A stretch of DNA of 37,801 nt from a virus. Position numbers and translations under genes: made by a program. Below the pieces are notes generated by a model. That model saw only the letters and a program-made list of their open reading frames with translations. It had not been told where the DNA came from and made no database searches. The stretch lies in the IMG/VR virus record IMGVR_UViG_3300021403_000032, positions 1 to 37,801 of that record. One strand, written 5' to 3'. Shown piece after piece: positions 1,149 through 37,801 of this stretch (its first letter is position 1; every line of letters begins with the position of its first letter).

Positions 1149-1227
1149 AAGTGGAACCGCGCAATTACGCATCGTCTACTGTTACTTGCACGTACGCAAC
1201 TACTCGCAGTAAAGGAAGGGACCACCA
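1149..1227 (+). promoter_or_regulatory. Control region of the Lsr2-like gene
   Basis: This 79-bp gap interrupts an otherwise fully overlapping gene run and is AT-richer than its surroundings. It holds a near-palindrome TTGCACGTACGCAA and a flanking inverted pair TTACT ... AGTAA, followed by the ribosome-binding leader GAAGGGACCACC (1215-1226) one base before the GTG start. Lsr2-type proteins bind AT-rich DNA, so autoregulation here is possible; that is inference. I see no convincing -35/-10 pair (TTGCAC with TAAAGG at 18 bp is weak). Confidence 0.4.
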
Positions 1228-1611
1228 GTGGCAACACAAACCCGAGTCGTGCTCACCGACGACCTAAACGGCGGCGAAGCCGAGGGCACGGTGCAATTCG
1301 GGCTCGACGGCCAGGGCTACGAAATGGAGCTCGACGCGGCGAATAGCGCCGCGCTGCGCGCATCGCTGCGCCCCTACATCGACGCGGGCCGCCGCGTCGC
1401 CGCCATTCCGGCCCAGCGGCGCCGGGGCACTCGCAGCGCCCCCGGCCGCGCAGCCGTCCCCGCGGCGCGATTCGCCACCGGACAGCCGCTCACCGACGAC
1501 GAGCGCGCCAAGATTCGCGAATGGGCCAAGACTCAGCCCCAGCTCGGCAAGATCGCCGACAGGGGCCGTCTCAGCGCGACCGTGATCGCCGAATACCGAA
1601 AGGTGCACTGA
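1228..1611 (+). CDS. lsr2: Lsr2-like nucleoid-associated protein
   Basis: The 127-residue product has the architecture of Lsr2, the actinobacterial xenogeneic silencer that bridges AT-rich DNA. The N-terminal dimerisation domain is clear (VVLTDDLNGGEAEGTVQFGL at 7-26, then YEMEL and LRPYIDAGRRV), a basic linker follows (RRRGTRSAPGR), and the C-terminal DNA-binding domain shows IREWAKTQ and the minor-groove-reading triplet Arg-Gly-Arg at 112-114, ending VIAEYRKVH. Start is GTG with a strong extended Shine-Dalgarno leader. Its stop overlaps the next ATG (TGATG). In a temperate phage it may regulate early or lysogenic genes, or act as a decoy against host Lsr2 silencing; the role is inferred, the family call is firm. 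Confidence 0.93.
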   Translation: MATQTRVVLTDDLNGGEAEGTVQFGLDGQGYEMELDAANSAALRASLRPYIDAGRRVAAIPAQRRRGTRSAPGRAAVPAARFATGQPLTDDERAKIREWAKTQPQLGKIADRGRLSATVIAEYRKVH

Positions 1612-2033
1612 TGACCGGCCTGACATTCACCGACCATCCCGCCGACCCCGCCGAGTACCTGCCCCCCGCGCCGCGATCTGAGCACCCCGGCCCGCTCGTG
1701 CTGATCATCCGCCCGACAGGGGCCGCCGAGCTGCTCGTGCTGCCCTCACGCGATCGCGAGCAGGCCGCCGTGCTCAATGACATCGTGGGCGGCCATCTCG
1801 AAACCATCGGCGACGGCTCCTGGCTCGCGTTCGTCTGCGAGGACGGCGCGCGGCTAGAGCAGCCGCACAACCTGACCGCCGACGCGCTCGCCCGCGCGCT
1901 GGGGTGGCACTTCCACCACGGCGACGTCCTCCTCGGCCCGGCGGTGTTCGCGTGCCGGAAGGGCGTCGAGATCGGCGACGTGCCGCAGCGCGTGATCGAC
2001 CTCGCCTCAGCCGCCGGGCTGGTGCTCTCATGA
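1611..2033 (+). CDS. DUF3846-like protein
   Basis: ATG at 1611 shares a base with the stop of the Lsr2-like gene. The 140-residue protein resembles DUF3846 phage and plasmid proteins: a core in which a residue count is followed by VLNDIVGGHLETI, then a strand pair (WLAFVCEDGARLEQPHN), then LARALGW and a closing GDVLLGPAVFACR segment. The family has no established biochemical function. It is co-translated with the Lsr2-like gene and the next gene (ATGA at 2030). The N-terminal 30 residues are proline-rich and not part of the shared core. Family assignment is from memory of the pattern. Confidence 0.7.
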   Translation: MTGLTFTDHPADPAEYLPPAPRSEHPGPLVLIIRPTGAAELLVLPSRDREQAAVLNDIVGGHLETIGDGSWLAFVCEDGARLEQPHNLTADALARALGWHFHHGDVLLGPAVFACRKGVEIGDVPQRVIDLASAAGLVLS

Positions 2034-2386
2034 TGGGGCCGATCGGCGAGCACGCGCGGGCCGAACTGCACCACGAGCCCTCCCGTCGCGGCGGCGACGA
2101 CGGCGAGGTCTACACGCTCGCCCGGATGATCCCCAAGCCCGCCGAGCGCGGCGGGGCGGTGATCGACGTCGAGCACGCCGAGTTCATCGAGGCATGGCCG
2201 CGCACCGCCGAGGGCGCGATAACCGCCGTGAACCGGGCCGCGCAGCTCTCCCGCCACGACGGGCCGGTCGAGCTGCTACGCCCCGATGGGCGCATGATGG
2301 CCCGATACGAGCGCGGCCGGCGCGCCGACCTGCCAGCGGGCGGCATCGTTCACCTGGCCGAAGCCAGGGCGGCGATCAATGGCTGA
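2030..2386 (+). CDS. Hypothetical early protein, 118 aa
   Basis: ATG at 2030 overlaps the preceding stop. The 118-residue product (MMGPIGEHARAELHH...) has a C-terminal part with regular polar strands (VELLRPDGRMMARYERGRRA) and no cysteines or hydrophobic segment. It overlaps the next gene by 8 nt. It lies in a cluster of small co-translated genes of unknown role after the Lsr2-like gene. I do not recognise a family. Confidence 0.7.
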   Translation: MMGPIGEHARAELHHEPSRRGGDDGEVYTLARMIPKPAERGGAVIDVEHAEFIEAWPRTAEGAITAVNRAAQLSRHDGPVELLRPDGRMMARYERGRRADLPAGGIVHLAEARAAING

Positions 2387-2681
2387 GGGCAGGCTGCGGT
2401 TCCGCATCTACGTCGAGGGCGAGCTAGTCGCTGAGGACTGGCTAGTGACCGGCGACCCGGACGGGACCGCAGCCAAAGCCCGCGAGCACGGCCACATATG
2501 CGACGAGGCCAAGGAGGCGGGCAAAGACTGGCTCCTTGAGGTCTACGACCCCGACCGGCCCGAGGACGACCCCGACGCCTATCTCAAGATCGGCCCCGAC
2601 TCGCTCGCCGTGATGGAGCCGATCGCGGTCGTCGTGCTCGGCGTCCCGTCGATCGACCGGCGCGACCGAGGGCTCAACTGA
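2379..2681 (+). CDS. Hypothetical early protein, 100 aa
   Basis: The start ATG at 2379 lies 8 nt before the end of the upstream gene and the stop overlaps the next ATG (TGATG at 2679-2683). The 100-residue product begins with beta-like strands (LRFRIYVEGELVAEDW), is acidic in the middle (DPDRPEDDPDAYL) and ends with a hydrophobic strand (IAVVVLGVPS). No family is recognised and no catalytic motif is visible. Confidence 0.7.
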   Translation: MAEGRLRFRIYVEGELVAEDWLVTGDPDGTAAKAREHGHICDEAKEAGKDWLLEVYDPDRPEDDPDAYLKIGPDSLAVMEPIAVVVLGVPSIDRRDRGLN

Positions 2682-2863
2682 TGACCGCGCAGCCGGGGGG
2701 CGCCCGCTTCGCTCCCCGGCTGCGCCGCGCCGAGAGGCGCGTCTGCGGCTGTGGCCACGCCCGCCGCTATCACGAGCACTACCGGCCCGGCACCGAGTGC
2801 ATCGTGTGCGTCTGCACCCGCTTCCGCTGGCGCTGGCTCTCGCCGTTGCGGCTGCTCGACTAG
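2681..2863 (+). CDS. Small zinc-finger-like protein, 60 aa
   Basis: This coupled 60-residue gene encodes a basic protein with a compact metal-binding pattern: CGCGHARRYHEHY followed by CIVCVCTRF. The Cys/His spacing (C-x-C-x-H ... H ... C-x2-C-x-C) is typical of small zinc-binding proteins in actinophage early regions. The C-terminus is rich in Arg and Trp (RFRWRWLSPLRLL), which could bind nucleic acid. Its specific role is unknown. Confidence 0.75.
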   Translation: MTAQPGGARFAPRLRRAERRVCGCGHARRYHEHYRPGTECIVCVCTRFRWRWLSPLRLLD

Positions 2864-2880
2864 CGGGGCAGACTGGCCGC

Positions 2881-3261
2881 GTGGCCACATCCCGCCGAAC
2901 ACTCTCAGCCCGTGGCCGGGCGATGTACGGCAAGCCGGTTACCTCGAGCTGGCGCACGGCGAACTACGCCTACCCGCGCGGCGTCGGGCCTGACCGGGGC
3001 AAGCGCCCGAGCTACCCCATCGACCCCCGGCACGTGCGCGCAGCGCTCGCCCGCGCCTCGCAGCGCAACACGTCGAGCAGCCGGGGCGCGATCGAGGCCA
3101 GGCTGCGCAAGCGCTACGGCTCAGTAGCGAACGCGCTCGCCGCAGCCAAGCGCGCCAGCCCCCGCCGCGCGACGTCGACGGCCAGGCGCACGAGCACGCA
3201 CAGAGGGGGCGGCACGAGACGGGCAGGGGCGCGTCGATCGACCCCCCGGCGCTCGCGCTGA
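2881..3261 (+). CDS. Basic protein with DUF6582-like core
   Basis: The best start is GTG at 2881 (126 residues), 17 nt after the previous stop; ATG at 2923 is an alternative. Residues from about 30 on resemble the short DUF6582-type core seen in phage proteins: YPIDPRHVRAALARAS, then a basic stretch ending in a helix (LRKRYGSVANALAAAKRA). The last 40 residues are extremely rich in Arg, Ser and Thr, so the tail is very basic and probably disordered and nucleic-acid binding. The stop overlaps the HNH gene start (TGATG). The family match is tentative. Confidence 0.6.
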   Translation: MATSRRTLSARGRAMYGKPVTSSWRTANYAYPRGVGPDRGKRPSYPIDPRHVRAALARASQRNTSSSRGAIEARLRKRYGSVANALAAAKRASPRRATSTARRTSTHRGGGTRRAGARRSTPRRSR

Positions 3262-3599
3262 TGCCCCTCAAGGCTCCGACCCCCTGCTCGTTTCCACGAT
3301 GCCCCTCGCCGTCAACAGCGGGCGGTCGATGCGACGAGCACCCGCGCCCGCTCAGGTGGGCGAGCGGAGCACCGGGGCGCGCTATGCCGAAGGGGTGGGC
3401 AGCAACTAGAGCCCGCATCCTGCGGCGGGACGGGGGGCTGTGCGACTGCGGCGCGCCCGCCACTGAGGTACATCACACGATCCCCGGCGTCGAGGCCGAT
3501 TGGGCGCTGGCCAGCAAGTGCCAGCCTTGCCACAGAGCGATCACCCAGCGGCAGGCAGCGGGGGCGCGCGGGCATCCACGCGAAACGGCCGCCAGATGA
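3261..3599 (+). CDS. HNH endonuclease family protein
   Basis: This 112-residue protein has an N-terminal Cys cluster (C9, C14, C24, H27) and a C-terminal HNH module: LCDCGAPATEVHH (C61, C63, H71, H72) and CQPCH (C87, C90, H91). HNH proteins nick or cut DNA with a metal-bound beta-beta-alpha fold; many small phage HNH proteins assist DNA packaging. Here it lies about 2.5 kb upstream of the small terminase and 5.5 kb upstream of the large one, separated from them by the modification cassette. The metal site looks intact. Start is ATG coupled to the previous stop. Confidence 0.85.
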   Translation: MPLKAPTPCSFPRCPSPSTAGGRCDEHPRPLRWASGAPGRAMPKGWAATRARILRRDGGLCDCGAPATEVHHTIPGVEADWALASKCQPCHRAITQRQAAGARGHPRETAAR

Positions 3600-3805
3600 C
3601 GCACAGAGCGGAGCGCAGACGGCGCGAGCGCGAGCGCGAGTGCTTGCCAGCACGAGACACTCGGCGGCGCAGCGTCCGTCTGAGCGTCGCGCAGACCTGG
3701 GGAGGGGCTCCACCTGCCCCCCGTCGTGCTGAGCGGCTCGCACAGGGCACGCATCCGCGCGACGGTTTCGCGGAAAACGGGTTTCGCCGCCATGACCCAG
3801 CCTGA
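3596..3805 (+). CDS. Possible small basic protein, 69 aa
   Basis: An ATG overlapping the HNH stop (ATGA at 3596) opens a 69-residue frame (MTHRAERRRRERERECLPAR...) that ends 14 nt inside the next gene. It is very rich in Arg and has no recognised domain. The coupling signals and the lack of another gene for 190 nt favour translation, but the composition is what GC-rich out-of-frame DNA also produces, so this may be a leader rather than a true gene. Confidence 0.4.
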   Translation: MTHRAERRRRERERECLPARDTRRRSVRLSVAQTWGGAPPAPRRAERLAQGTHPRDGFAENGFRRHDPA

Positions 3806-4346
3806 GCCCGAGCGCGCCGCCGCCGTGGTGCTCCCGCACCGCTACGCCATGATGCCGGTCGGCGAGATGCGGCCGCACCCGTCGAACCCGAACCGGGGCG
3901 ACGTCGACGCGATCGCCGAGTCAATCGAGGGCATCGGGTTCTACGGCGTCGTGGTGGTGCACGAGTCGACCGGGCACATACTGATCGGCGAGCACCGATG
4001 GACCGCCGCGCAGACGGTCGGGCTCGGCGAGGTCCCCGCGATCGTGGTCGACTGCGACGACGACACCGCGCGGGCGGTCATGGTCGGCGATAACGAGTAT
4101 GCGAAGCTGGCCCGCTGGGACGTCGAGCGGCTCGTCGCCGTGCTGGAGCAGCAACGCGCCTCGCCGCTGGGCCTGGCCGCGACCGGGTTCGGCGAGGCCC
4201 GCTTCGCCGAGCTGGTCGCGCAGCTCCACCCCGCGCCGCCCGATCAGTTCCCCGGCTACGACGACGACCTGCCGACCCAGCACCGATGCCCGCGCTGCGG
4301 CTACGAGTGGTCGGGATCAGCGCGGCCAGGCCAGGGCGCCGCATGA
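3792..4346 (+). CDS. ParB/Srx-fold protein with C-terminal zinc ribbon
   Basis: The product (184 residues from ATG 3792; the frame opens further upstream at 3726) has a ParB-like N-terminal domain: the entry segment VGEMRPHPSNPNRGDVDAIA at 23-42, the hydrophobic core GFYGVVVV, and the signature GEHRWTAA at 67-74 that corresponds to the nucleotide-contacting GERR/GHRR box of ParB. The C-terminus carries CPRCGYEW, half of a zinc-ribbon. Phage ParB-like proteins are often next to DNA methyltransferases; some are CTP-dependent clamps, others nucleases. Here it overlaps the cytosine methyltransferase (ATGA) and is the first gene of the modification cassette, so a role in targeting or regulating modification is plausible but inferred. 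Confidence 0.85.
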   Translation: MTQPEPERAAAVVLPHRYAMMPVGEMRPHPSNPNRGDVDAIAESIEGIGFYGVVVVHESTGHILIGEHRWTAAQTVGLGEVPAIVVDCDDDTARAVMVGDNEYAKLARWDVERLVAVLEQQRASPLGLAATGFGEARFAELVAQLHPAPPDQFPGYDDDLPTQHRCPRCGYEWSGSARPGQGAA

Positions 4347-5380
4347 CGCGCCCGCCCTACGAGCTGCCCACGATGGCCAGCATCGCGTCAATCGAGCCGA
4401 GCGGCTACACGGTCGCGTCGACGTTCAGCGGCACCGGGGGCAGCTCGGCGGGCTACCGGCTCGCCGGATTCGACGTCGTGTGGGCGAGTGAGTTCGTCCC
4501 CGCGGCAGCCGCGAGCTATCGCGCGAACGCCAGCCCCGCGACCGTGCTCGACACGCGAGACATCCGCGAGGTGAAGCCCGACGAGCTGCCCGAGGTTGAC
4601 GTGCTCGACGGCTCGCCGCCGTGCGCCGGGTTCAGCACGCAAGGCAACCTATCGGCGGGCTGGGGCGAGACGGTCGCCTACTCGGGCACGAGCCAGCGCG
4701 TGGACGACCTGTTTTTCGAGTACGCCAGGATCGCCGAGGGGCTGCGCCCCAAGGTGCTCATTGCGGAGAACGTCTCCGGGCTCGTGCGCGGCGTGTCCAA
4801 GGGCTATTTCAAGCTGATCTTGGCCAGGCTGCGCGACGCCGGATACCGCGTCGAGGCGCGGCTGCTCGACGCGAGCTGGCTCGGCGCTGCGCAAGAGCGC
4901 CGCCGGATCATCTTCGTCGGCGTGCGCGACGACCTGGCCGTCGCGCCCGCCTACCCCGCTCCGCAGCCCGTGCGCCGCACGATCGGCGACGCCCTCGGCC
5001 CCGATTACGGCGGGCTCGTGTGGCGGTGGGGCATCGCCGACCGGACCCGGCCCTGTCCCACCATTCAGACGTCTTACACGTCTCATTCTGAGCTGGCGGT
5101 GCTCGCGCCGCCCGGCACCGACCACGACCCCGAGACGGGCCGCGATCTTCACGCCGGGATACCGGCCCACCGAGCGCGCCGCGAGCGCGAGCACGAGTGT
5201 CGACGTCTCACGCTCGGCGAGCTGCGGGCGCTGGCCGGGTTCCCTCCTGATTTCGAGCTGACCGGGAGCTACGATCAGCGCTGGGAGCGGATCGGCCGCG
5301 CCGTCCCGCCCGTGATGATGGCCGCGATCGCGTCGGCGGTGCGCGATCGCATACTCGACCCGCTGCGGGAGGCCGCGTGA
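4343..5380 (+). CDS. DNA cytosine-C5 methyltransferase with Arg in motif X (candidate carboxymethyltransferase)
   Basis: The 345-residue protein has the ordered motifs of C5 DNA methyltransferases: motif I TFSGTGGSSAGYRLAGF (27-43), motif IV GSPPCAGFS with catalytic Cys94, motif VI ENV (142-144), motif VIII QERRRIIFVGVR (184-195), a target-recognition region around RPCPTIQTSYTSHS (236-249), motif IX RRLTLGELRALAGFPPDF and motif X. Motif X normally reads GN[SA]VPP; here it is IGRAVPP, with Arg319 (codon 5297-5299) in place of the conserved Asn that lines the cofactor methyl site. In the engineered M.MpeI variant, Asn-to-Lys at this site permits Cx-SAM use. Together with the coupled CmoA-like gene downstream (GTGA overlap), this suggests transfer of a carboxymethyl group to cytosine. 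No cognate restriction enzyme is visible. Family certain; unusual cofactor inferred. Confidence 0.93.
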   Translation: MTRPPYELPTMASIASIEPSGYTVASTFSGTGGSSAGYRLAGFDVVWASEFVPAAAASYRANASPATVLDTRDIREVKPDELPEVDVLDGSPPCAGFSTQGNLSAGWGETVAYSGTSQRVDDLFFEYARIAEGLRPKVLIAENVSGLVRGVSKGYFKLILARLRDAGYRVEARLLDASWLGAAQERRRIIFVGVRDDLAVAPAYPAPQPVRRTIGDALGPDYGGLVWRWGIADRTRPCPTIQTSYTSHSELAVLAPPGTDHDPETGRDLHAGIPAHRARREREHECRRLTLGELRALAGFPPDFELTGSYDQRWERIGRAVPPVMMAAIASAVRDRILDPLREAA

Positions 5381-22336: not shown

Positions 22337-23265
22337 CCACACCGAACCCGACCGGGAAGCTGGCCTACGGCCAGGCCGCGAACTACGACGCGGTGGACGA
22401 TCGTGCTGTTGTGACCGCCGTGACCGGGGGGCGGCTCGGGCTGGTCCGGCCGGTCTCGGCGGTCGCGGGCACCGGGCTACAGATCGTCGTCCGCGCGGGG
22501 TGGGTCGGCACCGCGAGCTGTGACGACCTGACGAGCGCCGTCGTCGGCAGCCGCGAGGACATGATCGTGCAGGCCAACCCCGGCCCGGCGAGCGGCCCCC
22601 CGCGCAATGATGTCATCTGGTGCTCGACCAACCCGGACGAGGGCACATTCGAGCTGTCCGTGATGACGCTCGCGCAGTCGGCGGGGCGCAGCGGCCTGCC
22701 GCTGGTCAACGTCCTCGTTCCCGCTGGCACGAACCTGGCCTCGGGAATGCAGCTCGTGCCCGTCGACGCGCGCATAGACCGGCGAACCCTCTCGGTGACC
22801 TACATGGGGACCGGCGGCGGATTCAACGATTACAACGCGACGAGCTGGGGCGCTGCGGTAGGCCGCGGCGTCGAGTCCCTGCCGTGTTTCATGGAGCCGG
22901 GCCAGTGGTACCGGGTGCGCTACATCGCGCATTGCTGCTCGCTCGTCGGCACGATCCCGCCCGCCGGGACCAGGCTAGAGGGCGCGGTCGCGATCGGCGA
23001 GCGCACCGAAGGGCAGCTTGCGGTCAACTCGATTTTGCGGCGCGGCTACGTCTTCGCCTGGCCGTTCTTCACGGTGCCGACCATGATTCAGGCCGAGTAC
23101 GTGTTCCGCCACAATCTCAACGACGCGCCAGTGTGGCGGGTGTTCGACGGCCGGATCTGGAAGCACCCGACGAACGTCCCCGCCAACGTGTCGATCCGGC
23201 CCGGCGGCTACACCGACATGGGTCCGTTTATCCAGACGTTCACCGTCGAGGACATCGGGAGCTGA
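22333..23265 (+). CDS. Minor tail protein, paralogue of the collagen-like fibre N-terminus
   Basis: The 310-residue product begins with a domain (to about residue 150) that is clearly related to the start of the next gene: [20 protein letters not shown] here and [20 protein letters not shown] there, then the D-D-L/D-E-T and [15 protein letters not shown] segments in the same order. The C-terminal part is unique ([20 protein letters not shown], a Cys pair AHCCS, and [19 protein letters not shown]-like end). The first domain may attach fibres to the baseplate. Coupled start (ATGA). Confidence 0.72.
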
Positions 23266-23267
23266 TC

Positions 23268-24875
23268 GTGACGACGCCGACGCTGCTGCGCTGGGGCCAG
23301 TCGGGCAGGTATGCCGCCTGGGACGACCGCCAGGTGATCACCGCGCTATCGGGCCGCGCGACCGGCGTCGTGACCCCGGTCGTGCTGAGCCCCGGCGTCG
23401 GCCTGCACTTCTCCGTCGACGCGGGCTGGCTCGCGATCGCCGACTGCGGCGACGAGACGGTCGCGGTGCTGGCCTCGCCGCTGGGCATCGACGTCGCCGC
23501 CGAGCTGGGCGGCGCAGTCGATCGCACCGACGAGCTGTGGGCCGAGGTGCTCGACCCCGAGGCCGCGACGTTCCGGCTCAACGTTCGCCCGGCGGGCGAT
23601 ACCCCGCTCGGCGTGCTGCTGGCCACGATCGAGGTCCCGGCGGGCGCGACCGAGATCGCCGACATGACGCTGCTGCCGCGCCCCCAGGACTACCCGCCCG
23701 GCGAGCCCGGCCCGCCCGGTCCCCCCGGCCCGCAGGGGCTACCCGGCCCGCAGGGACCGCCCGGCGAGCCCGGCGGACCCCCCGGCCCGCAGGGCGAGGC
23801 AGGCCCCGAGGGAGCGCCCGGCCCGGCAGGCGAGCAGGGACCGCCCGGCTACGAGGGCGCGCAGGGTCCGGCTGGCCCGACCGGCGATCGCGGCGACCCC
23901 GGCCCCGAGGGTCCGCTAGGCCCGGCCGGTCCGACCGGCCCCGAGGGACCGCGCGGCGAGGAGGGCGTCGCGACGATCGTCGTCGGCTCGTTCGGCCAGG
24001 AGCGCACGCCCGCCGACTTGCCCGATAGCGGGCTGATCCCCGCCGGATGGGACGGCGACGGCCGGCCCGCCGCGCCGGTTCAGCTAGAGCGCGGGTGGGC
24101 GCTGGTCTACGACCCGACCGGCGACCTGTGGGTGTGGGTCACGAGCAGCTCGTCGCCGAACGGCGAGGCGTGGCTAAACGTCGGGCTCGTCCGAGGTCCG
24201 CAGGGCGAGCGCGGCGAGCAGGGCGAGCAGGGGCCGCAGGGACCGCCCGGCGCGGACGGCCCGCCCGGCACGCTCAACGCCTCGTTCCTGTCCGACGCTG
24301 GCCCGGTCGTGCTGCCCGGCAACCAGACCACCCCGACGATGGTTACCCGCGCGTGGGTGATCCCCGCCGCGCAGCTCATCCCCGGCAGTTGGTTCGAGAT
24401 TCACACCGCCGGATTCGGCGGCTGGGGCGCGACGAGCGATCAGCGGATACTCGTCGTTCACGGGCGGTTCAATGCCTCGATGGTGCTTCGGTACATCGAC
24501 CTGCGGCTGACGAACCTGTCGGGCGGGCAGACCAACGTGCCGTTCGGGGTCGCGCTGCGACAGTTCGTGCAGGTCAACACGCCAACGTCGGTGATGGTCT
24601 GGACGGAGGCGCTGTGCTCGCCACGGCCGACCCATCCCGGCTGGTCGGGCGGCAATATGTCCGCTGGGGCGGTGAGCAGCGTCGAGCCCGAAACCCTCAT
24701 AGCGGGCGCTGATCTCACGCTCGGCCTCACCGCGCGATGGGGGGGCACGCTCGACAACGCCGCGTCGGCGACCTTCCAGGGCTCGCGGCTGTCCCGCTAC
24801 GTCGCCGCGCCGATGCAGGCCAGCCGCGTCTATGACGCGCTGATGCGACGCCCGACGATCTTCGGCGCGGCGTAG
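23268..24875 (+). CDS. Collagen-like tail fibre protein
   Basis: GTG 23268, two bases after the preceding stop, gives 535 residues. Order: an attachment domain shared with the previous gene (1-138), a Gly-X-Y region of about 30 triplets (about 144-236, [19 protein letters not shown]...), a compact domain [20 protein letters not shown]...AGWDG (about 240-310), a second short collagen stretch ([20 protein letters not shown]), and a C-terminal head of about 195 residues without recognised motif (from [20 protein letters not shown]). Bacterial and phage collagen triplets fold as triple helices without hydroxyproline, so a trimeric receptor-binding fibre is likely. The head would recognise the host surface. 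Confidence 0.88.
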
Positions 24876-24914
24876 CGTGAGGACCGCCAAATTCCACCCC
24901 GAGGGGAGACACTC

Positions 24915-25124
24915 GTGCCCATCAGGCCAGGCAAGCACCGCCGCCGGATCACGCCCGGCGAGACCTACACCGGAGCGGAGCTCGACGCGGGCGACGTCGA
25001 GCTGGAGACCGTGCCCCCCGACGACCTCGAGCTACCCGAGGCCGATCAGGTCGGCGACCTAGAGCACGAGGGCGCCCCCGACGACGCGGGCGACGACGAG
25101 CCAGAGCAGGAGGTGCCGTTCTGA
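24915..25124 (+). CDS. Small acidic protein, 69 aa
   Basis: GTG 24915, with GAGGGGAG eleven bases before it, gives 69 residues: a basic start (PIRPGKHRRRITPGETYTGA) and then a very acidic chain (DAGDVELETVPPDDLELPEA, DDAGDDEPEQEVPF). It overlaps the endolysin start (TGATG). It is probably disordered after residue 20. Its place between fibre and lysin suggests a minor structural or lysis accessory role, but nothing more can be said. Confidence 0.65.
   Translation: MPIRPGKHRRRITPGETYTGAELDAGDVELETVPPDDLELPEADQVGDLEHEGAPDDAGDDEPEQEVPF

Positions 25125-26886: not shown

Positions 26887-26890
<4 letters not shown>
26483..26890 (+). CDS. Small beta-rich tail protein (possible baseplate adaptor)
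   Basis: The 135-residue protein is made of alternating strands (ATLRAVAGDPFAFRVVLLDG, WTWAATVDTGALRLDF, GVRLWLRGDDTARLPIGRPL, FDVACRQPAGGEGVLVLAGQ). This order resembles the N-terminal attachment domain of siphovirus baseplate proteins such as BppU, where a receptor-binding protein is bound to the hub; the likeness is only of pattern. It overlaps the next collagen-like gene (ATGA), and may attach it. Confidence 0.65.
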
Positions 26891-28584
<1,694 letters not shown>

Positions 28585-30893: not shown

Positions 30894-32029
30894 GCCGCAC
30901 CCGACTTCCGCGCCCGGCGAGTCGTCGCCTTGCTGCCACGCCGCGACAGCCGCGCCGCGATCTGCTCGTCGCCCCGGTCGGTCGCGTGCTGATAGATCAT
31001 CGCCATCGTGGGATTAGCGTGCCCGATCCGGCGCATCAGTTGCTTGGTCGTCGCGCCCGCCTCAGCGGCCCACGTCGCCCCGGTGTGGCGCAGATCGTGA
31101 AACCGCAAGTCGCCGCGGCCGATGCTAGCCCGCGCGAGATTCCATTCGCGCCACACCACCGACTGGTAGAGCTGCCCGCCCCGAGGGGCGGTGAACAGCA
31201 GCCCCTTATCGCCCGGCTGCGCGTACGCGAGCAAGTGCTGCGCCAGCTCAGGCAGCAGGAACGCCGGAACGGCAATCGACCTGATACCGGCCTCGCTCTT
31301 GGGCGGCCCGGCGACGAGCCCGTGACCCGTGCGGGTAGCGGCGCGGCTGATCATCAGCACGCCCGCGTCGAGGTCGACGTCTCCCCGGCGCAGCTCGGAC
31401 AGCTCGCCGAAGCGCATCGCGCACCACGCGGCCAGCAGCACGAGCATCCGCCATTCGGCGGGCATCGCGTCGGCGAGCTGGTCGACCTCGGCCTCAGTCG
31501 CGACGTTGATCACGTGCGATCGCTTGTCGGACCCGCCCCGCCGCACCCGGCACGGGTTCGCGACGATCAGCTCGTCCTCGACGGCGGTCGTCATGATCGC
31601 GTGGAGCAGGCGGTACGACTTCGCCCGCGCCGAGGGGGTGCGCTGGCCGTAGCTCGTGTGCCACTCGCGCACGTGCTGCGGCGTGATCGCGTTCATCCGC
31701 AGGGCGCCGAACGTCGGCAGCAAGTGCCCCGCCAGCACAGAGCGGTACTCGATGGGGGTGCGCCCGCGTAGCGGCCTGGTGCGCAGCCAGTCGGCGGCGT
31801 AGGCGGCGAACGTGGGCACGCGCTCGCGGCGGGGCTGCGCGACCTGGCCCCATGCCCCGCGAGCGATGTCTGTCTGCTGGGCGCTCAGCCACGCGGCCGC
31901 GTCGCCCTTGGTCTGAAACGTGCTCGGCGCGTTGTGCCGCGCCGCGTCGGGGCCGATGTAGCTCGCCTGGTAGCGCCCCGAGGGCAGCTTGCGGACCTTG
32001 CCGAAGCCCGAGCGTCGTCGTGTGGTCAT
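30890..32029 (-). CDS. int: Tyrosine integrase
   Basis: I choose ATG 32029 because the leader GAAGGGACCACC (32036-32047) precedes it; the open frame continues 14 codons upstream but lacks a ribosome site. The 379-residue enzyme has an AP2-like arm-binding start (RSGFGKVRKLPSGRYQASYI), a SAM-like core-binding domain (about 70-155) and a catalytic domain with all expected residues: Arg206 (AMRFGEL), Lys244 (PPKSEAG), His311 and Arg314 (HDLRHTG), His337 (IGHANP) and nucleophile Tyr346 (MIYQHA). It catalyses integration between attP and attB. Probable arm sites lie just upstream, at 32061-32295. Confidence 0.96.
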   Translation of the reverse strand: MTTRRRSGFGKVRKLPSGRYQASYIGPDAARHNAPSTFQTKGDAAAWLSAQQTDIARGAWGQVAQPRRERVPTFAAYAADWLRTRPLRGRTPIEYRSVLAGHLLPTFGALRMNAITPQHVREWHTSYGQRTPSARAKSYRLLHAIMTTAVEDELIVANPCRVRRGGSDKRSHVINVATEAEVDQLADAMPAEWRMLVLLAAWCAMRFGELSELRRGDVDLDAGVLMISRAATRTGHGLVAGPPKSEAGIRSIAVPAFLLPELAQHLLAYAQPGDKGLLFTAPRGGQLYQSVVWREWNLARASIGRGDLRFHDLRHTGATWAAEAGATTKQLMRRIGHANPTMAMIYQHATDRGDEQIAARLSRRGSKATTRRARKSGAA

Positions 32030-32060
32030 TTTTCTGGTGGTCCCTTCCGGCCGATCTCTC

Positions 32061-32295
32061 GTGCCCCACACGTGCCTTACGCACTCTACATTCGTGGGGC
32101 GTTACTGTCACTCGTTGTAACACGGACGGGGGCACGATCTATGCCGTGACGTGCGGGAACCGGCCGCTGACCTGGCCCGACGTGCGGCGGTGCATGATAA
32201 TGATCGAGGAGTGAACACCCCAGCTCAGAGGGGGTCTTGCCCGCCCCGTGCCCCCCGCGTGCCCTAGTCAAAACTCGGGACACAACTGGGGGCAC
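32061..32295. other. Candidate attP / integrase arm-site region
   Basis: Exact GTGCCCCC or its complement occurs at 32128-32135 (minus sense), 32248-32255 (plus) and 32288-32295 (minus), with a one-mismatch copy GTGCCCCA at 32061. The last two form an inverted pair around a more AT-rich stretch (CCTAGTCAAAACTCGGGACA). Short repeats in both orientations next to int are what arm-type sites look like. The core cannot be set without the host attB. Confidence 0.45.
32083..32111 (-). promoter_or_regulatory. Probable integrase promoter
   Basis: On the minus strand GTGACA (32106-32111) and TAGAGT (32083-32088) are separated by 17 bp, matching five and four of six consensus positions. The integrase leader and ATG lie about 36 and 54 bases downstream. 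Confidence 0.55.
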
Positions 32296-32337
32296 GCCCG
32301 ACACATCCGCCCGAAGGATGATTTCGAGGCGCAGCTC

Positions 32338-32366
32338 TTGACGTGCGCCAACGTGGCGGGTAATAG
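32338..32366 (+). promoter_or_regulatory. Probable early rightward promoter
   Basis: TTGACG (32338-32343) and TAATAG (32361-32366) are separated by 17 bp. The -35 differs from consensus by one base. It is the only good plus-strand promoter ahead of the early operon that starts at 32634, leaving a 5' leader of about 260 bases that includes the tandem repeats. Confidence 0.6.
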
Positions 32367-32417
32367 TCGCTCCTATGCGTTAGTTGCGCCGTAGCAAGCA
32401 AGCATCAACCAGCGCAG

Positions 32418-32538
32418 GCCGAACCGAGGGGCGGCATATCCCCCCGCCACCTTTCGGGGCGGACCAGGCTAACCCCGAGCCGAACGAGGGACGGCATACT
32501 CCCCCGCCACCTTCCGGGGCGGACTAGGTGAACCCCGG
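32418..32538. repeat. Two imperfect tandem repeats of about 60 bp
   Basis: Copy 1 (32418-32478) and copy 2 (32479-32538) both start GCCGAAC, continue with CGGCATA and CCCCCGCCACCTT, and end in AACCCCG; about 50 of 60 positions agree. They lie in the untranslated leader of the early operon, downstream of its promoter. Each may form a short CCGCC/GGCGG hairpin. They may bind a regulator or act in the RNA as an antitermination or attenuation element. Confidence 0.75.
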
Positions 32539-32633
32539 GGCCGGACGCTGGCCGGGCCGAGAGCGTATGAGGTTCTGCGCTGGCCAAGCCGCCCGGTAAC
32601 CCGACGACTCTCTGGCCACAGGAGGGGATCACC

Positions 32634-32852
32634 TTGTCAGTTTCGGCGCGCTCGGACGAGCCCCGATGGGCCTCGCTGAAAGAGGCCGAGATTTACGCGC
32701 ACATTCCGCGGCGCACTCTGCGCCGCTGGATCGCCGAGGGGCGCCTGCCCGCTGAGCGGGTCGGGCCTCGACAGATACAGGTCGACCTAAACGACGTCGA
32801 CGCGCTGCGCGCCCCGATCCCCTCGGCGGCTCTGGACGCGCAAGATGCCTAG
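32634..32852 (+). CDS. Excisionase-like HTH protein
   Basis: TTG 32634 is the start, with AGGAGGGG at 6-nt spacing, and gives 72 residues. It is a MerR/HTH_17-type winged helix: SLKEAEIYAHIPRRTLRRWI, then AEGRLPAERVGPRQIQVDLN, then DVDALRAP. Proteins of this form serve as Xis (directionality factors for tyrosine integrases) or small regulators. As first early gene, divergent from int, the Xis role is likely. It overlaps the nuclease gene by 8 nt. It might also regulate the early promoter. Confidence 0.82.
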   Translation: MSVSARSDEPRWASLKEAEIYAHIPRRTLRRWIAEGRLPAERVGPRQIQVDLNDVDALRAPIPSAALDAQDA

Positions 32853-33675
32853 CGCCGATCCCGATCTAGGCATCCGCCGCCGCAATCACGGGCTGAATCA
32901 CAGCTACCGGATCGACGGCGAAAAGGTCCCCGGCGTGACGACGATCACCGGCTTTTTCAAGTCGGGCGCGCTGGCCAAGTACCCCGGCACGGCCACCGCC
33001 GAGTACGCGGTGAACAACTGGGGCACCCTGTCGGAGCTCCCCCCGGCCGACCGCCTCAAGGTGCTCTACGGCGCGCAGTATTCCGAGCGCGACGCCGCCG
33101 CCGGGCGGGGCACCAAGGTTCACCGGATCGCGCAGCGCTTGCACGAGTCGCCGCCGGGCACCGAGATCGACTACCCCGACGAGCTGGCCGGCCACGTCGA
33201 CAGCTACGTCGATTTCCTCGAGCGGGTCGACCCCAAGGTGCAGGCCGTCGAGCTGGTCGTCGGGAACCGGACCCATCGCTACTGCGGCACGCTCGACCTG
33301 ATCGCCGACCTCGGGCCGGTCCCGTGGGATGACACGATCATCCCGCCCGCGCGGTGGCTGCTCGACCTCAAGACGAACCGCTCGGGCATCTGGCCGGAAA
33401 CGGCGCTCCAGGTCTGCGCCTACGAGCGCGCCGAGGTGTTCATTGCCGAGGACGGCTCAGAGCGGCCGATGGAGTGGTTCGGTATCGAGCGCTGCGGCGC
33501 GTTGCACGTCCGGGGGGATGGCTGGGATCTGGTGCCCGTCGAGACCGGCCCCCAGGTCTGGACGTGCTTCACCAATCTGGCGTGGCTCTACCACCACGAC
33601 GAGGCGCGCAAGGAATGGGTGGGCGTAGCCGCCGGGCCGTTCCCGCACGCTGCCCCGGCGGCGCTCTCCGCGTAA
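32845..33675 (+). CDS. PD-(D/E)XK exonuclease (Cas4/RecB-like)
   Basis: The 276-residue protein has the ordered motifs of RecB-family nucleases: His93 in GTKVHRIAQ, Asp151 in GTLDLIADL, Asp174-x-Lys176 in WLLDLKTN and the QxxxY box Gln189/Tyr193 (ALQVCAYE). Such enzymes degrade DNA ends to give single strands for the annealing protein. The RecT-like gene is close downstream, so the two form a recombination pair like lambda Exo/Bet. No iron-sulfur Cys set is seen, so it is not a complete Cas4. Confidence 0.88.
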   Translation: MPSADPDLGIRRRNHGLNHSYRIDGEKVPGVTTITGFFKSGALAKYPGTATAEYAVNNWGTLSELPPADRLKVLYGAQYSERDAAAGRGTKVHRIAQRLHESPPGTEIDYPDELAGHVDSYVDFLERVDPKVQAVELVVGNRTHRYCGTLDLIADLGPVPWDDTIIPPARWLLDLKTNRSGIWPETALQVCAYERAEVFIAEDGSERPMEWFGIERCGALHVRGDGWDLVPVETGPQVWTCFTNLAWLYHHDEARKEWVGVAAGPFPHAAPAALSA

Positions 33676-33725
33676 ATCGAGCAGGGCCAGGCGACGCAAC
33701 CGCCCGGCCCTATCCGCCCAAGTGA

Positions 33726-34013
33726 ATGGACTGCGGCATGACCGTACCACCGCCCCACCCCGAATCGGTGAACATCCAGACAACGGCGATTTACGATCCG
33801 CTCACCACTCGCGATCTCGACCTGCTACTGGCGGTCATCACCGCCGGGCGGCGAATGGTCTCGGCGGTGCACCCGACGCTGTGCCCGCTCTGGCACGATC
33901 TCGGCGAAGTCATCACCGACCTGAATGCGGCCTGGTGGCGCGCGTTCAAACGAGAGAACCCCGACGTCCGGGTCGAGCAGCACCGGCCCCTGACGAATGC
34001 GTGCGCGTGGTGA
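33726..34013 (+). CDS. Hypothetical protein, 95 aa
   Basis: ATG 33726 or ATG 33738 (second Met) is possible; the stop overlaps the RecT start (GTGA). The 95-residue product is helical, with DLDLLLAVITAGRRMVSAVH and LWHDLGEVITDLNAAWWRAF. It lies between exonuclease and annealing protein, and may be a small accessory factor of recombination. No family is recognised. Confidence 0.65.
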   Translation: MDCGMTVPPPHPESVNIQTTAIYDPLTTRDLDLLLAVITAGRRMVSAVHPTLCPLWHDLGEVITDLNAAWWRAFKRENPDVRVEQHRPLTNACAW

Positions 34014-35077
34014 GCCCCGCGCGACGGACCCAGCCAGGCGACGAGCTATCCATCCGATCGTGGGCGGCTGAGCTGGAAGCCGCCGCCGTGATCGCGCGGC
34101 AGCTCGCGCCCACGGCGTTCATCCCCGAGAGCCTCAAGCGCTACCACCGGGGCGAGCATAACGAGCTGCTCGACGGCAAGGACGGCAGGGCCTACCGCCT
34201 CGACCTCGATAGCACGACCGCGACGGCGGCGGCCGCGATATTGACCGGGCAGGAAATCGGGCTCAGGCCGATGGCCGCGCTGCGGTCTATCGCGGTGATC
34301 AATAACACGCCCGCGCTCGCAGCGCTCACTCTGCGCGCCGTGCTCCAGAACGCCGGGCACGACATATGGGTCGCCGAGTCGACGGCGACGCGCGCAGTCG
34401 TGCGCGCCCGCCGCGCCGGGGATACCGAGGTGCTGGAGTCGACGTGGACGCTTGACCGGGCGAAGACACTCGGGCTCTACCCCGGCAAGGAATACGGCCA
34501 GTGGCGACGCCAGCCGACGTCGATGCTCGTCGCTCGCGCGACCGCCGAGGCTGCCCGCTGGATCGCCGCAGACGCGATCCTGGGCATTCCCTACATCGCC
34601 GAGGAGCTGATAGACGAGCTGGGCGGCGAGCGCGAGCCCCTCATGATCGAGGCCGGCCCCGGCGACAGCAACGGCGAGCAGCCCAAGGCCAAGACGCGCA
34701 CGGTGAAGCGCAAGGCGACGAGCACGCCGCCCGCGCTGCCCGCCGGGCCTCCGCTCCCGCGAGCCGCCGACGAGCCCCCCGCGGTCGCCGCAGCGAACGC
34801 TCGCGCGATCCCCGAGGAGCCCGCCGACGACGCCCCGATGATCTCCAAGCCGCAGCTCGACAAGTTGCACGCCGGGCTACGCGAGATCGGGATCGAGGAT
34901 CGCTCCGAAGGGCTCAGCATCGTGTCGACGTGGGCGGGCCGACACGTGACGACGACCAAGAATCTGACCGAGGCCGAGGCCGGGCGCGTGCTGTCCAGCC
35001 TTGAGGCGGTGCGCAGCATGGGCGCTCGCCTCGCCGTCGCCCAGGCCCACGACGACGCCGAGCGGGACACCCCGTGA
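34010..35077 (+). CDS. recT: RecT-like single-strand annealing protein
   Basis: I place the start at GTG 34010, overlapping the previous stop; the long upstream open frame is a shadow. The 355-residue protein has the RecT pattern of actinophages: AAELEAAAVIARQLAPTAFI, then ILTGQEIGLRPMAALRSIAV, then TLRAVLQNAGHDIWVAESTA, and the closing ARATAEAARWIAADAILGIP with IAEELIDELG. It anneals complementary single strands made by the exonuclease at 32845. The C-terminal 130 residues are a Pro/Ala-rich linker (residues near 220-280) and a small helical domain (SKPQLDKLHAGLREIGI) that resembles tails of other annealing proteins. Confidence 0.88.
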   Translation: MSPARRTQPGDELSIRSWAAELEAAAVIARQLAPTAFIPESLKRYHRGEHNELLDGKDGRAYRLDLDSTTATAAAAILTGQEIGLRPMAALRSIAVINNTPALAALTLRAVLQNAGHDIWVAESTATRAVVRARRAGDTEVLESTWTLDRAKTLGLYPGKEYGQWRRQPTSMLVARATAEAARWIAADAILGIPYIAEELIDELGGEREPLMIEAGPGDSNGEQPKAKTRTVKRKATSTPPALPAGPPLPRAADEPPAVAAANARAIPEEPADDAPMISKPQLDKLHAGLREIGIEDRSEGLSIVSTWAGRHVTTTKNLTEAEAGRVLSSLEAVRSMGARLAVAQAHDDAERDTP

Positions 35078-35256
35078 GCCGCGCCGAGCTGGAGGCAGCC
35101 CGCGAGCAAGCGTGGATGGCCTACAACGTCTTGGTCCGCACGCTGCCCGACTGCGAGCACGTGCGCGAGTGGCGTCAGCAGGTCACCGTCGCCCGCGCTG
35201 CGCACCTGGCCGCCGCGAGGGCGTGCGATCGCGAAGCGGAAGGGGCGCAGCCATGA
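35074..35256 (+). CDS. Small helical protein, 60 aa
   Basis: A coupled gene (GTGA at 35074) for 60 residues, all-helical by composition: SRAELEAAREQAWMAYNVLV and EHVREWRQQVTVARAAHLAA. It contains two Cys but no clear zinc site. The stop overlaps the next ATG. Possibly a coiled-coil accessory protein; no family recognised. Confidence 0.65.
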   Translation: MSRAELEAAREQAWMAYNVLVRTLPDCEHVREWRQQVTVARAAHLAAARACDREAEGAQP

Positions 35257-35480
35257 CCCATATCTGCCCGGCGCGGCGCTGCGGCGTCGAGCTGCCCGAC
35301 CACCTGCTGATGTGCCGCCCTCATTGGGGGCTCGTCCCGCCCGTCTTCCAGCGCGCGGTCTATGCCGCCTACAACCGGGGCGCGGGGGTCGGCACGCTCG
35401 GCCTGTTGCACGCCCAGGTCGACGCGATCAGGGCCGCGAACGATGCCATCCTGCCCCCGCCCCCGAGGAGCGCCCCGTGA
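35253..35480 (+). CDS. Small zinc-finger protein, 75 aa
   Basis: This coupled gene encodes 75 residues with a metal motif at the start: ICPARRCGVELPDHLLMCRP followed by HWGLVP (C-x4-C ... H ... C-x2-H). The rest is a helix (FQRAVYAAYNRGAGVGTLGL) and HAQVDAIRAANDAI. The pattern is frequent in actinophage early regions; its role is not known. Confidence 0.72.
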   Translation: MTHICPARRCGVELPDHLLMCRPHWGLVPPVFQRAVYAAYNRGAGVGTLGLLHAQVDAIRAANDAILPPPPRSAP

Positions 35481-35995
35481 TCGAAACCAGGCCCGATACG
35501 ACGATCTATCGCGGGCAGCGCATCCCCGGCGGGCTCGTCGCGGTGTTCGTGTGCGACGACGCGGCGGGCTGGGCCGCGCCGCTCGTGCATTTCGTGCGGC
35601 ACTCGCACGGGCTCGGCTGGGGCGACAGCGGGCCGGGGGCGGCTGATCTCGCGCTCTCGCTGCTGGTCGACGCTCTCGGCCCGGCGGCGCTGTGCCCGAT
35701 GTGCGACGGCAGGCGTCGCGTCGTGTGGCTCGGCCCCGACGCCCCCGTCGACCCGGTGCCGTACAACCCGATCCGGCACGCCGGGGCCGATCCCGAGCTG
35801 GTCACCGACTGCCTGTGCTCGGACGGGCTGCGCAGCCTGGCCTATCGCGAGTTCACGTGCGCGGTGGTCTCGGGCTGGCCCGACACGTGGACGATCAGCC
35901 GCGCGCAGATACTCGACTTCCTGACCACGCTCTACCCGCCCGAGGGCGAGCTGCCCGAGTGGCTCCAAGACGTCGTGACCGGGGCGCGATCGTGA
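35477..35995 (+). CDS. DUF6166-like protein
   Basis: GTG 35477 (coupled) gives 172 residues. The pattern is that of DUF6166: YRGQRIPGGLVAVFV near the start, FVRHSHGLGWGDSGPGAADL in the middle, LALSLLVDALG, and at the end FTCAVVSGWPDTWTISRAQI. An insertion with CPMCDGRRRVVW and DCLCSDGL (four Cys, probably zinc) is placed inside the domain, which the shorter family members lack. The family has no known activity. Recognition is from memory. Confidence 0.7.
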   Translation: MIETRPDTTIYRGQRIPGGLVAVFVCDDAAGWAAPLVHFVRHSHGLGWGDSGPGAADLALSLLVDALGPAALCPMCDGRRRVVWLGPDAPVDPVPYNPIRHAGADPELVTDCLCSDGLRSLAYREFTCAVVSGWPDTWTISRAQILDFLTTLYPPEGELPEWLQDVVTGARS

Positions 35996-36345
35996 CCCGG
36001 ACGGGCCGCGACAAAGGCAACGCCGCTCCAGCGTGGGTCGCTGAGTACCTGCAACCCTGGTGGCCAGGCTGCGAGAAGACACCCAACTCGCGCCCCGGTC
36101 GCGACATACTCGGCACCCCCGGCGCCGCGATCGAGGTTAAGACCGGCGTTGAATGGCGGCACAAGTGGATCGAGCAGGCGGCCGGTTACGTGCTGCCGGG
36201 CGAGCTGGGCCTGCTGTTTTACGTCCCCCCCGGCGTCCAGCGGGGCGGCGTGCTGCGCGGTGACTTCCTGGCCGTGATCACCGCGCGCTCGATTATGCCG
36301 CTCGTCGTCGCCGCCGGATACGCCCCCGAGCCCAAGGAGCGGTGA
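35992..36345 (+). CDS. Small PD-(D/E)XK nuclease, Holliday-junction-resolvase type
   Basis: GTG 35992 gives 117 residues. The core has RDILGTPGAAIEVKTG, where Asp38 and Glu48-x-Lys50 fit the PD-(D/E)XK metal site, followed by RHKWIEQAAGY. The short length and N-terminal Trp-rich part (WVAEYLQPWWPGCE) fit phage resolvase-like or VRR-NUC-type nucleases. It could cut branched DNA made by recombination or replication before packaging. It belongs to the recombination and replication cluster. Confidence 0.75.
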   Translation: MTRTGRDKGNAAPAWVAEYLQPWWPGCEKTPNSRPGRDILGTPGAAIEVKTGVEWRHKWIEQAAGYVLPGELGLLFYVPPGVQRGGVLRGDFLAVITARSIMPLVVAAGYAPEPKER

Positions 36346-37214
36346 TGCCGATAACCCAGATTTACATCCCGCTCTACGTCGGGTTTCCCCGCGACCCGAA
36401 AGTGCGGGCGCTCGTCGTGCGGCACGGGGTCGACGGGATACTCGCCGCCTATCTCTACATCGTCATGGCGCTTTACTGCCGCGAGAACCTGAGCGATGGC
36501 GTCGTGCCCGTCGAGGAGATCGGCGCGCTGGCCTACCCCCTGCCGATCGACCACGCCGAGCGCTTGACCAAGCTGCTCGCCGACGCCGAGCTGATCCGGG
36601 GCACGAGCACGAGCCAAGCGAAGGCTCAAGCCGATGCTAAAGCCGAGGCTCAAGCAATGGCTCAAGCCGACGCTTGGCTAGTGCTCGCCTACGTCAAACG
36701 GAACGGCACCCGCGAGCAGATCGAGGAAAGAACCGCGCGGCTCTCCTCAGCGGGCCGTACCGGCGGGCTCCGTAGCCGCTCTGACCAGGGCTCTAAGCCA
36801 GGGCTTGAGCCAAGGCTTGAGCCGGGGGCTAAGTGGTCGCCAAGCGACGTGCTAAGCCAAGGCTCAAGCAAGACAGAGACAGAGACAGGTAAAACCTCGC
36901 GCGCCCGCGCAGGCGCGCACGCGCCCGCGCGAGGCACCCGGCAGCCCCCGCCCGCGTCTGAGGTGCTCGGCCAGCACTACGCCCCGTCGAGCGATCCGAA
37001 CGAGCGCGCCGCCGAGGCACGCCGCCAGCTCGCCGAGCGCGACCGGCCCCTCAACGCCGCACCCGACGCCGCGCCCGCCCTCGGGGGCGAAGCGCTCGCA
37101 CGCGCGCAGCTCGCCCAGGCACGAGCCGCCCGCCTGCCCGAGATCGAGGCCGCCGCCGTCGACGGTGACGAGCCCCCCGCCGAGCAACCGCCCGGCGACG
37201 ATTACCCGTTCTGA
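36345..37214 (+). CDS. Replication-initiator-like protein with embedded iterons
   Basis: ATG 36345 is better spaced from AAGGAG than GTG 36342; it gives 289 residues. The N-terminal 85 residues form a winged-helix-like domain (TQIYIPLYVGFPRDPKVRAL, then DGILAAYLYIVMALYCREN, SDGVVPVEEIGALAYPL and LLADAELI) like those of phage DnaD/replication initiators. A repeat-coded spacer (AKAQADAKAEAQAMAQAD) is followed by VLAYVKRNGTREQIEERTAR and a long low-complexity part. The spacers are encoded by a cluster of GGCTCAAGCC-like repeats (36623-36869), which looks like an origin inside the initiator gene, as in lambda O. The C-terminus ends in PGDDYPF, like SSB or replication tails. Confidence 0.7.
   Translation: MPITQIYIPLYVGFPRDPKVRALVVRHGVDGILAAYLYIVMALYCRENLSDGVVPVEEIGALAYPLPIDHAERLTKLLADAELIRGTSTSQAKAQADAKAEAQAMAQADAWLVLAYVKRNGTREQIEERTARLSSAGRTGGLRSRSDQGSKPGLEPRLEPGAKWSPSDVLSQGSSKTETETGKTSRARAGAHAPARGTRQPPPASEVLGQHYAPSSDPNERAAEARRQLAERDRPLNAAPDAAPALGGEALARAQLAQARAARLPEIEAAAVDGDEPPAEQPPGDDYPF
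36623..36869. repeat. Iteron cluster, candidate replication origin
   Basis: GGCTCAAGCC or its complement GGCTTGAGCC occurs at 36623-36632, 36647-36656 (last base A), 36659-36668, 36802-36811 and 36814-36823, with variants GCTAAAGCC at 36636, GGCTCTAAGCC at 36789, GGCTAAG at 36827, GCTAAGCC at 36851 and GGCTCAAGC at 36861. The unit is nearly palindromic and present in both orientations, in two groups about 120 bp apart. It is AT-richer than its surroundings and lies in the initiator-like gene. Confidence 0.65.
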
Positions 37215-37226
37215 GAGGACCCGGCC

Positions 37227-37640
37227 ATGCCCAACGTCAAGACCAACGCCGTGCTACCCAAGGGCGAGGAGAACGGGCTCGCGGACATCGCGGGCGCGCT
37301 CGTCGCCGAAGGGCTCGGGCGCTCCCCGGTCAAGCTCCGCGCCGTGATCGCGATCGTGGCCCCGCGCCGGGTGAGTGTCGACACCAAGACCGGCGACGAG
37401 CTGGCCACCGTCGAGATTCGCCGCGTCGAGGTGCTGCTGCCCGTCGACCTCGGGGCCGCTGAGAAACTGCTACGTCGCGCCCTAGAGTCCCGCTCCGGTC
37501 AGACCACGCTAGAGCTGGAGCTAGAGGACGAGATTCGACAGGCGTTCGATCAGATGCTCAACCCGGACAGCCCCGATGATCCCGAGGAGGGCGGCGACGG
37601 CCAGGGCGGCAAGGGCGGCAAGCCGCGGGGCAAGTCATGA
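37227..37640 (+). CDS. Hypothetical protein, 137 aa
   Basis: ATG 37227 has GAGAGGAC upstream. The 137-residue protein contains strands (VKLRAVIAIVAPRRVSVDTK, LATVEIRRVEVLLP) followed by a helix (LGAAEKLLRRALESRSGQTT) and an acidic segment, then a Gly/Lys-rich end (GQGGKGGKPRGKS). The order is frequent in actinophage proteins next to recombination genes, but the function is not known to me. Its stop overlaps the ATG of the junction-spanning gene. Confidence 0.72.
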   Translation: MPNVKTNAVLPKGEENGLADIAGALVAEGLGRSPVKLRAVIAIVAPRRVSVDTKTGDELATVEIRRVEVLLPVDLGAAEKLLRRALESRSGQTTLELELEDEIRQAFDQMLNPDSPDDPEEGGDGQGGKGGKPRGKS

Positions 37641-37801
37641 CCGCCCCCACCGAGACCGTGATCAGGGTTCAGGTCCGGCTCGGCCGCAAGCTCTACACCT
37701 ACGGCGTGCGAACCACGGTGGGCCGCGAGCCCAAGGCCGGTGACAAGGTGATCATCCCCGCGCCCGAGTGGATCCCCGACTTCGGTCCGCAGGAGGCCGT
37801 G
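37637..37801 (+). CDS. Small hypothetical protein, 5' part (continues at position 1)
   Basis: ATG 37637 overlaps the previous stop (ATGA). The frame MTAPTETVIRVQVRLGRKLY continues to the window end without stop. Since 37653-37801 repeats 1-149, the full gene is 37637-37652 joined to 1-227, coding for 80 residues. Family unknown. Confidence 0.75.
   Translation, partial: MTAPTETVIRVQVRLGRKLYTYGVRTTVGREPKAGDKVIIPAPEWIPDFGPQEAV
37653..37801. repeat. Terminal direct repeat, right copy (circular overlap)
   Basis: Identical to 1-149 except C at 37675 in place of T at 23. The difference is silent in the spanning gene, which points to natural variation in the sampled phage population or a base-calling difference, with a circular map. 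Confidence 0.9.

Follow-up and report, generated by a model that had tools for sequence, protein, structure and literature searches.

A probable replication origin nested within the initiator gene of a GC-rich environmental phage

Genomic setting of the locus

The window, by which we mean the whole stretch of DNA analysed, is 37,801 bp long, has a GC content of 71% and forms a virus record in IMG/VR; it carries structural genes (terminase, portal, head protease, major head, tape-measure and tail-fibre) together with an integrase gene. Because both integrase and excisionase genes are present, we regard the virus as an integrating phage, and we read it as temperate. A DNA methyltransferase gene lies at 4286-5380 (phrog_116, E 1e-73). 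The gene of interest is an ORF of 289 codons on the plus strand (36345-37214), and the early genes of its operon and the elements within it are arranged as follows.

32634-35077, plus strand: early genes of the initiator's operon, encoding an excisionase-like HTH protein, an exonuclease and a RecT-like annealing protein (PHROGs matches)
35986-36345, plus strand: RusA-like resolvase gene, directly upstream of the initiator gene in the same early operon (phrog_244, E 2.3e-6)
36345-36602, plus strand: N-terminal domain, residues 1-86, predicted to be winged-helix-like, putatively iteron-binding (ORF, AlphaFold2)
36613-36678, plus strand: iteron array A, six units with 11-12 bp spacing (36613, 36624, 36636, 36648 and 36660 on the plus strand; the last, 36672-36678, on the minus strand), encoding the QAKAQADAKAEAQAMAQADA linker
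36681-36773, plus strand: second conserved domain (WLVLAYVKRNGTREQIEERTARLSSAGRTGG), lying between arrays A and B, with Y116, N120, T122 and R123 invariant
36790-36870, both strands: iteron array B, six units (36790, 36839, 36851 and 36862 on the plus strand; 36803-36810 and 36815-36822 on the minus strand)
36869-36898, plus strand: purine-rich tract (CAAGACAGAGACAGAGACAGGTAAAACCTC region), putative DNA unwinding element (lowest 30-mer stability)
36894-37214, plus strand: C-terminal part of the initiator; its acidic tail is of low complexity and ends in DDYPF (37197-37211)
36898-36937, no strand assigned: GC block CGCGCGCCCGCGCAGGCGCGCACGCGCCCGCGCGAGGCAC, immediately following the purine-rich tract (40-mer stability percentile 0.0)

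A separate contig, L003, matches window positions 31352-37645 and then continues directly into positions 222-4775. Because L003 runs straight from 37645 into 222, the window probably represents an almost full-length genome, circularly permuted and cut beside the initiator gene; a terminal repeat was looked for in the window and was not found. About 380 bp around the junction (37645-37801 and 1-222) differ between the window phage and L003. The host is probably actinobacterial, as suggested by the GC content, by relatives among Gordonia, Streptomyces and Propionibacterium phages, and by the SSB-like protein tails described below.

Repeat arrays within the initiator gene

The first-pass annotation had described at least five exact or one-mismatch repeats and five shorter variants at 36623-36869. 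We count six copies of GGCTCAAGCC/GGCTTGAGCC with at most one mismatch at 36623-36870 (four exact and two with one mismatch), and three more in the remaining 37.5 kb of the window. The looser motif GC[TC]N{0,2}AAGC defines 12 units at 36613-36870, inside the initiator ORF, and the cluster therefore begins about 10 bp earlier than had been reported and holds six shorter variants rather than five. The units do lie in both orientations, nine on the plus strand and three on the minus strand, with neighbours mostly 11 or 12 bp apart, and they fall into two clusters that flank the second protein domain (36613-36678 and 36790-36870).

When every 10-mer in every 250-bp interval of the stretch is scored with correction for composition, the repeat cluster reaches p=2.4e-9, compared with a best value of 1.1e-6 among eight whole-window sequences simulated with a second-order Markov model. 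Comparable clusters occur only at 23551 and 27301, in collagen-like tail-fibre genes with repetitive protein. These two genes (22620-24875 and 26887-28584) have strong internal DNA repeats, and because such GC-rich tail-fibre repeats dominated a simple tally of the 10-mers repeated in each 250 bp, that tally was dropped in favour of the corrected score. In other viral contigs, the exact iteron pair matches only two unrelated coding repeats. The GC content of third codon positions falls from 91% in the N-terminal domain to 46% in array A and returns to 81% in the next domain, in agreement with the earlier suggestion that the repeats shape the protein spacer. Very probably, the clustered repeats are binding sites of the phage's own replication-starting protein, placed inside its gene.

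Homologous loci and DNA-level tests

Scans of IMG/VR proteins gave eleven distinct homologous loci (L003, L007, L009, L010, L011, L014, L015, L017, L018, L019 and L020), L007 being identical in sequence to L008, L012 and L013 and counted once; no homologue was found in genome contigs (two scans) or in plasmids. The N-terminal and second domains align across all homologues, and repeats occur in the same places, in the same linker and/or just after the second domain, in 10 of the 11 relatives, often with a different sequence. Thus L003 carries CCCCGAGCATTC repeats, L007 GGATCGCATAAC, and L011 GGCCATAGCCAA in about nine copies, while GCAATGCG-type repeats with 12-bp spacing are found in L010, L017, L018 and L020. 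GCATCC-like words serve as repeats in L019, those of L009 and L015 are weaker, and L014 is the least convincing, with little besides AAGC-like words. The repeat unit had also been called near-palindromic and taken to indicate binding by a dimer. Near-palindromes are indeed seen in the window (GGC-TCAA-GCC), L011 (GGC-CATA-GCC) and L007 (CGC-ATA-GCG), but the L003 repeat CCGAGCATT is not one, and dimer binding is only suggested by these sequences.

The arrays might instead be a by-product of a low-complexity linker of four-residue units (AxAQ, SPEH, QGHS) that is selected for the protein, the DNA itself having no role. Array A does encode a four-residue repeat in several relatives, and the lag-12 periodicity of the window is only marginally above that of synonymous shuffles (p=0.047), a weak separation that arises because the protein repeats too. 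Lag-12 autocorrelation alone was consequently set aside, and we compared array A with the reverse complement of array B against 1000 synonymous-codon shuffles of the gene, array limits and tracts having been set by eye before the tests. If the repeats served only the protein, there would be no need for array B to carry the sequence of array A in the opposite orientation. The match, however, beats 1000 of 1000 shuffles in the window, L003, L007, L011 and L019. Pairing of arrays from the same gene is the best of 120 permutations of those five genes (p=0.008), which were picked after inspection, and over all 12 loci, independently of that pick, it gives p=0.0005. No excess is seen in L009, L010, L015 and L020, and values are intermediate in L014 (p=0.11) and in L017 and L018 (p about 0.05); most of the loci that have no clear excess carry a single array. 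The inverted match within a gene is thus not the product of a protein repeat, since array B presents the same DNA inverted, encodes other residues, and retains its excess under synonymous shuffling. Taken with the collapse of third-position GC over the array and with a purine tract that is read in different frames and lies also outside the reading frame (see below), this makes a protein by-product highly improbable.

The initiator protein and its family

The AlphaFold2 model of the N-terminal domain has pLDDT values mostly above 85 for residues 21-80, and the domain is predicted to be winged-helix-like with a confidently modelled core. Foldseek searches with this model gave winged-helix proteins as best matches, each above E 0.001, and no match at E<=0.001; sequence searches of the PDB returned no significant relative. 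In the second domain, Y116, N120, T122 and R123 are invariant in an alignment of 12 homologues.

Family scores of the window protein itself are weak (phrog_22834 4e-4, phrog_2562 0.36, Lin1244_N 0.33), and against Pfam PF14297 (Lin1244_N) it scores 12.1 bits, below the curated cut-off of 25 bits, the best E value in the family being 0.0061. With an E limit of 0.5, however, phrog_2447 is matched by 10 of the 12 family members (best 2.3e-14) and phrog_3926 by 8 of 12 (best 1.8e-12), the window protein being absent among the matches listed for either. Both PHROGs are annotated "replication initiation protein", and in most relatives the matches span the N-terminal and second domains. The L014 protein matches O-like, DnaD-like helicase-loader and replisome-organizer families with E values from 1e-19 to about 3e-25, including phrog_391 (E 2e-25) and phrog_2514 (E 2.6e-25), and does so also over its helicase-loader-like C-terminal part. 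The window protein has no such match, and its own C-terminal part matches none of the replisome-organizer or initiation PHROGs (phrog_2447, phrog_3926, phrog_391, phrog_2514).

A C-terminal, SSB-like acidic Pro-Phe tip is present in 7 of 10 complete initiators (those of the window, at 37197-37211, L003, L007, L009, L015, L018 and L019) and in 2 of 787 other ORFs of at least 80 residues from the same loci, of which one is the C-terminal part that is split off in L020; the Fisher p of about 1e-13 overstates this enrichment because the family members are related. Tips in the family read GDDYPF (window), DDEPPF (L009, L015), EDEIPF (L019) and also DDEYPF. The SSBs of actinobacteria have DDEPPF at their ends. 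The tails of SSBs serve to organise partners at the replisome (PMC13220808), and recruitment of such partners through the initiator tip would therefore be plausible; the tip suggests a route of helicase recruitment. A short ORF elsewhere in the window (24876-25124) also has an acidic Pro-Phe end, GDDEPEQEVPF.

The unstable tract and the GC block

Of the 37,772 30-mers in the window, the tract that adjoins array B (36869-36898) ranks first in instability, and it is purine-rich on one strand; its region ranks second in instability among the 40-mers. The GC block that follows (36898-36937) is among the most stable 40-mers. An equivalent low-stability 40-mer is found in all ten related loci measured (every relative except L020), at percentiles 99.1-100 of its own locus, and it is followed in nine of the ten by a GC block at or below percentile 3.3, L017 being the exception. 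The equivalent tract in L015 is hardly purine-rich. A 15-mer, ACAGAGACAGAGACA, is common to the window and L007 in different reading frames and translates as TETET in the former and DRDRD (RDRD) in the latter, so that the DNA rather than the peptide is conserved. In Propionibacterium phage Doucette, a AGAGATAGA-type purine tract follows the stop codon of gp51, and in L020 a further repeat and a purine tract lie beyond the stop codon of the first ORF, which comes after array B. The L020 initiator (2860-3703) is split into two ORFs, its C-terminal part forming the separate one.

Another use for the repeats would be repression or autoregulation of the initiator's own operon with no origin at this place. 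Many iteron initiators also autoregulate, and a winged-helix protein with a cluster of sites in the gene that encodes it could obstruct transcription there. The sites, however, lie about 270-525 bp inside the gene rather than at a promoter, and an unstable tract and GC block are conserved beside them; moreover, the family carries initiator or O-like annotations and adjoins a DnaB-like helicase gene in Gordonia phages. We consider autoregulation alone very unlikely. It is scarcely credible that the repeats, instead of being initiation sites, serve partition or incompatibility (as parS-like sites, for prophage maintenance, or as decoys). Partition sites, too, can contain short repeats arrayed in direct and inverted orientation, but the genes for integrase and excisionase indicate a phage that integrates, none of the proteins scanned was identified as the product of a partition gene, and the unstable tract would be left unexplained.

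Exchange of a block between the window and L003

The window and L003 share about 94% DNA identity as far as 36349, a position just within the start codon, and about 95% from 36875 onward, whereas identity is about 45-70% at 36350-36875. The differing block comprises the N-terminal domain, array A, the second domain and array B, repeat sequences included, as would be expected if a specificity unit had been exchanged. Such an exchange is known from lambda-phi80 and lambda-82 hybrids (cited in PMC6022878). The pair amounts to a natural domain-swap experiment for initiator-site specificity. It is possible, though doubtful, that environmental phages of this kind combine an exchangeable origin cassette with a constant C-terminal part bearing a copy of the host SSB tip, and would hand initiation to host SSB partners (PriA, primase) with no dedicated loader. 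If true, cassette swaps would alter replicon specificity and allow escape from origin-directed interference.

Proposed origin and comparison with known systems

The best explanation of these observations, to which we assign a probability of about 0.85, mechanism included, is that 36345-37214 encodes a phage replication initiator and holds the phage origin in its own coding sequence. Most likely this is a nested origin of the lambda O type, with iterons and unwinding element in the initiator gene, in a form where the repeats make up two arrays with 12-bp spacing, the unwinding tract is rich in GA and abuts a GC block, and the specificity block can be exchanged. The 12-bp-spaced repeats of both arrays would be bound by the N-terminal domain, probably acting together with the second domain; the loaded arrays would strain the DNA so that the purine-rich tract at 36869-36898 opens; and the very stable GC block would bound the opened tract on its far side. 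The C-terminal part would then recruit the host replicative helicase and primosome, possibly via the SSB-like acidic tip. Binding, unwinding, helicase recruitment and origin activity are what we infer from sequence. The likeness to lambda O had been raised in the first-pass annotation, and it gains support from the initiator annotation of the family, the adjacent unwinding-like element, the inverted array matching within genes, the exchange of domains and repeats as one block, and DNA conservation across frames. The GC-skew analysis proposed there did not help, as cumulative GC and AT skew have no usable switch at the repeat site. The anatomy is predictable (N-terminal domain, array A, second domain, inverted array B, purine tract, GC block) and should help to locate origins in GC-rich phages, including cultured Gordonia phages in which the gene is annotated as hypothetical.

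In phage lambda, and also in the Stx phages P27 and 933W, the origin lies in the middle of the initiator gene, with iterons followed by a low-stability tract (PMC7466680), and the A+T-rich region of lambda has nearly all its purines on one strand (PMC5043065). The window resembles this arrangement in having iterons inside the initiator gene and then a low-stability, strand-asymmetric tract. It differs in the spacing of its units, about 12 bp, and in their division into two arrays split by the second domain; its tract, moreover, is rich in GA within a genome of 71% GC and has a GC block after it. Its N-terminal domain has no O-family match, and many members of the family end in an SSB-like tip. 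Iteron plasmids, too, have an initiator with its origin close by; their iterons are usually direct repeats in phase with the DNA helix, beside an A+T-rich element, whereas the window's units, about 12 bp apart and in mixed orientation, are not helix-phased direct repeats. Mycobacteriophage RepA is an initiator with a closely linked origin, for which a location inside repA was considered possible; no repeats were found there, however, the protein belongs to another family, and the prophage is kept by partition rather than integration (PMC7157519).

Searched against the annotated phage collection, the window protein matches only Doucette gp51 (29% identity, E 9e-4), which is annotated as a replication initiation protein and differs in stopping after the second domain. 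Full-length homologues of the L014 protein, with about 27-28% identity, occur in the Gordonia phages DobbysSock (gp64), Dorito (gp62) and Howe (gp69), where they are annotated as hypothetical proteins; they were not found directly with the window protein and were reached via L014. These genes have GCTAAGC-like repeats and a CAGAGACAGAGACATATATA tract and stand beside a DnaB-like helicase gene, DobbysSock gp64 being directly upstream of it, but they differ from the window in having a single array, after the second domain. Streptomyces phage Austintatious gp39 and Gordonia phage Bantam gp88, both annotated as replication initiation proteins, share the C-terminal part of the L014 protein. Their genes contain mid-gene GGGAACA-type purine tracts (L024 about 1411-1455 and L026 about 1375-1414, respectively).
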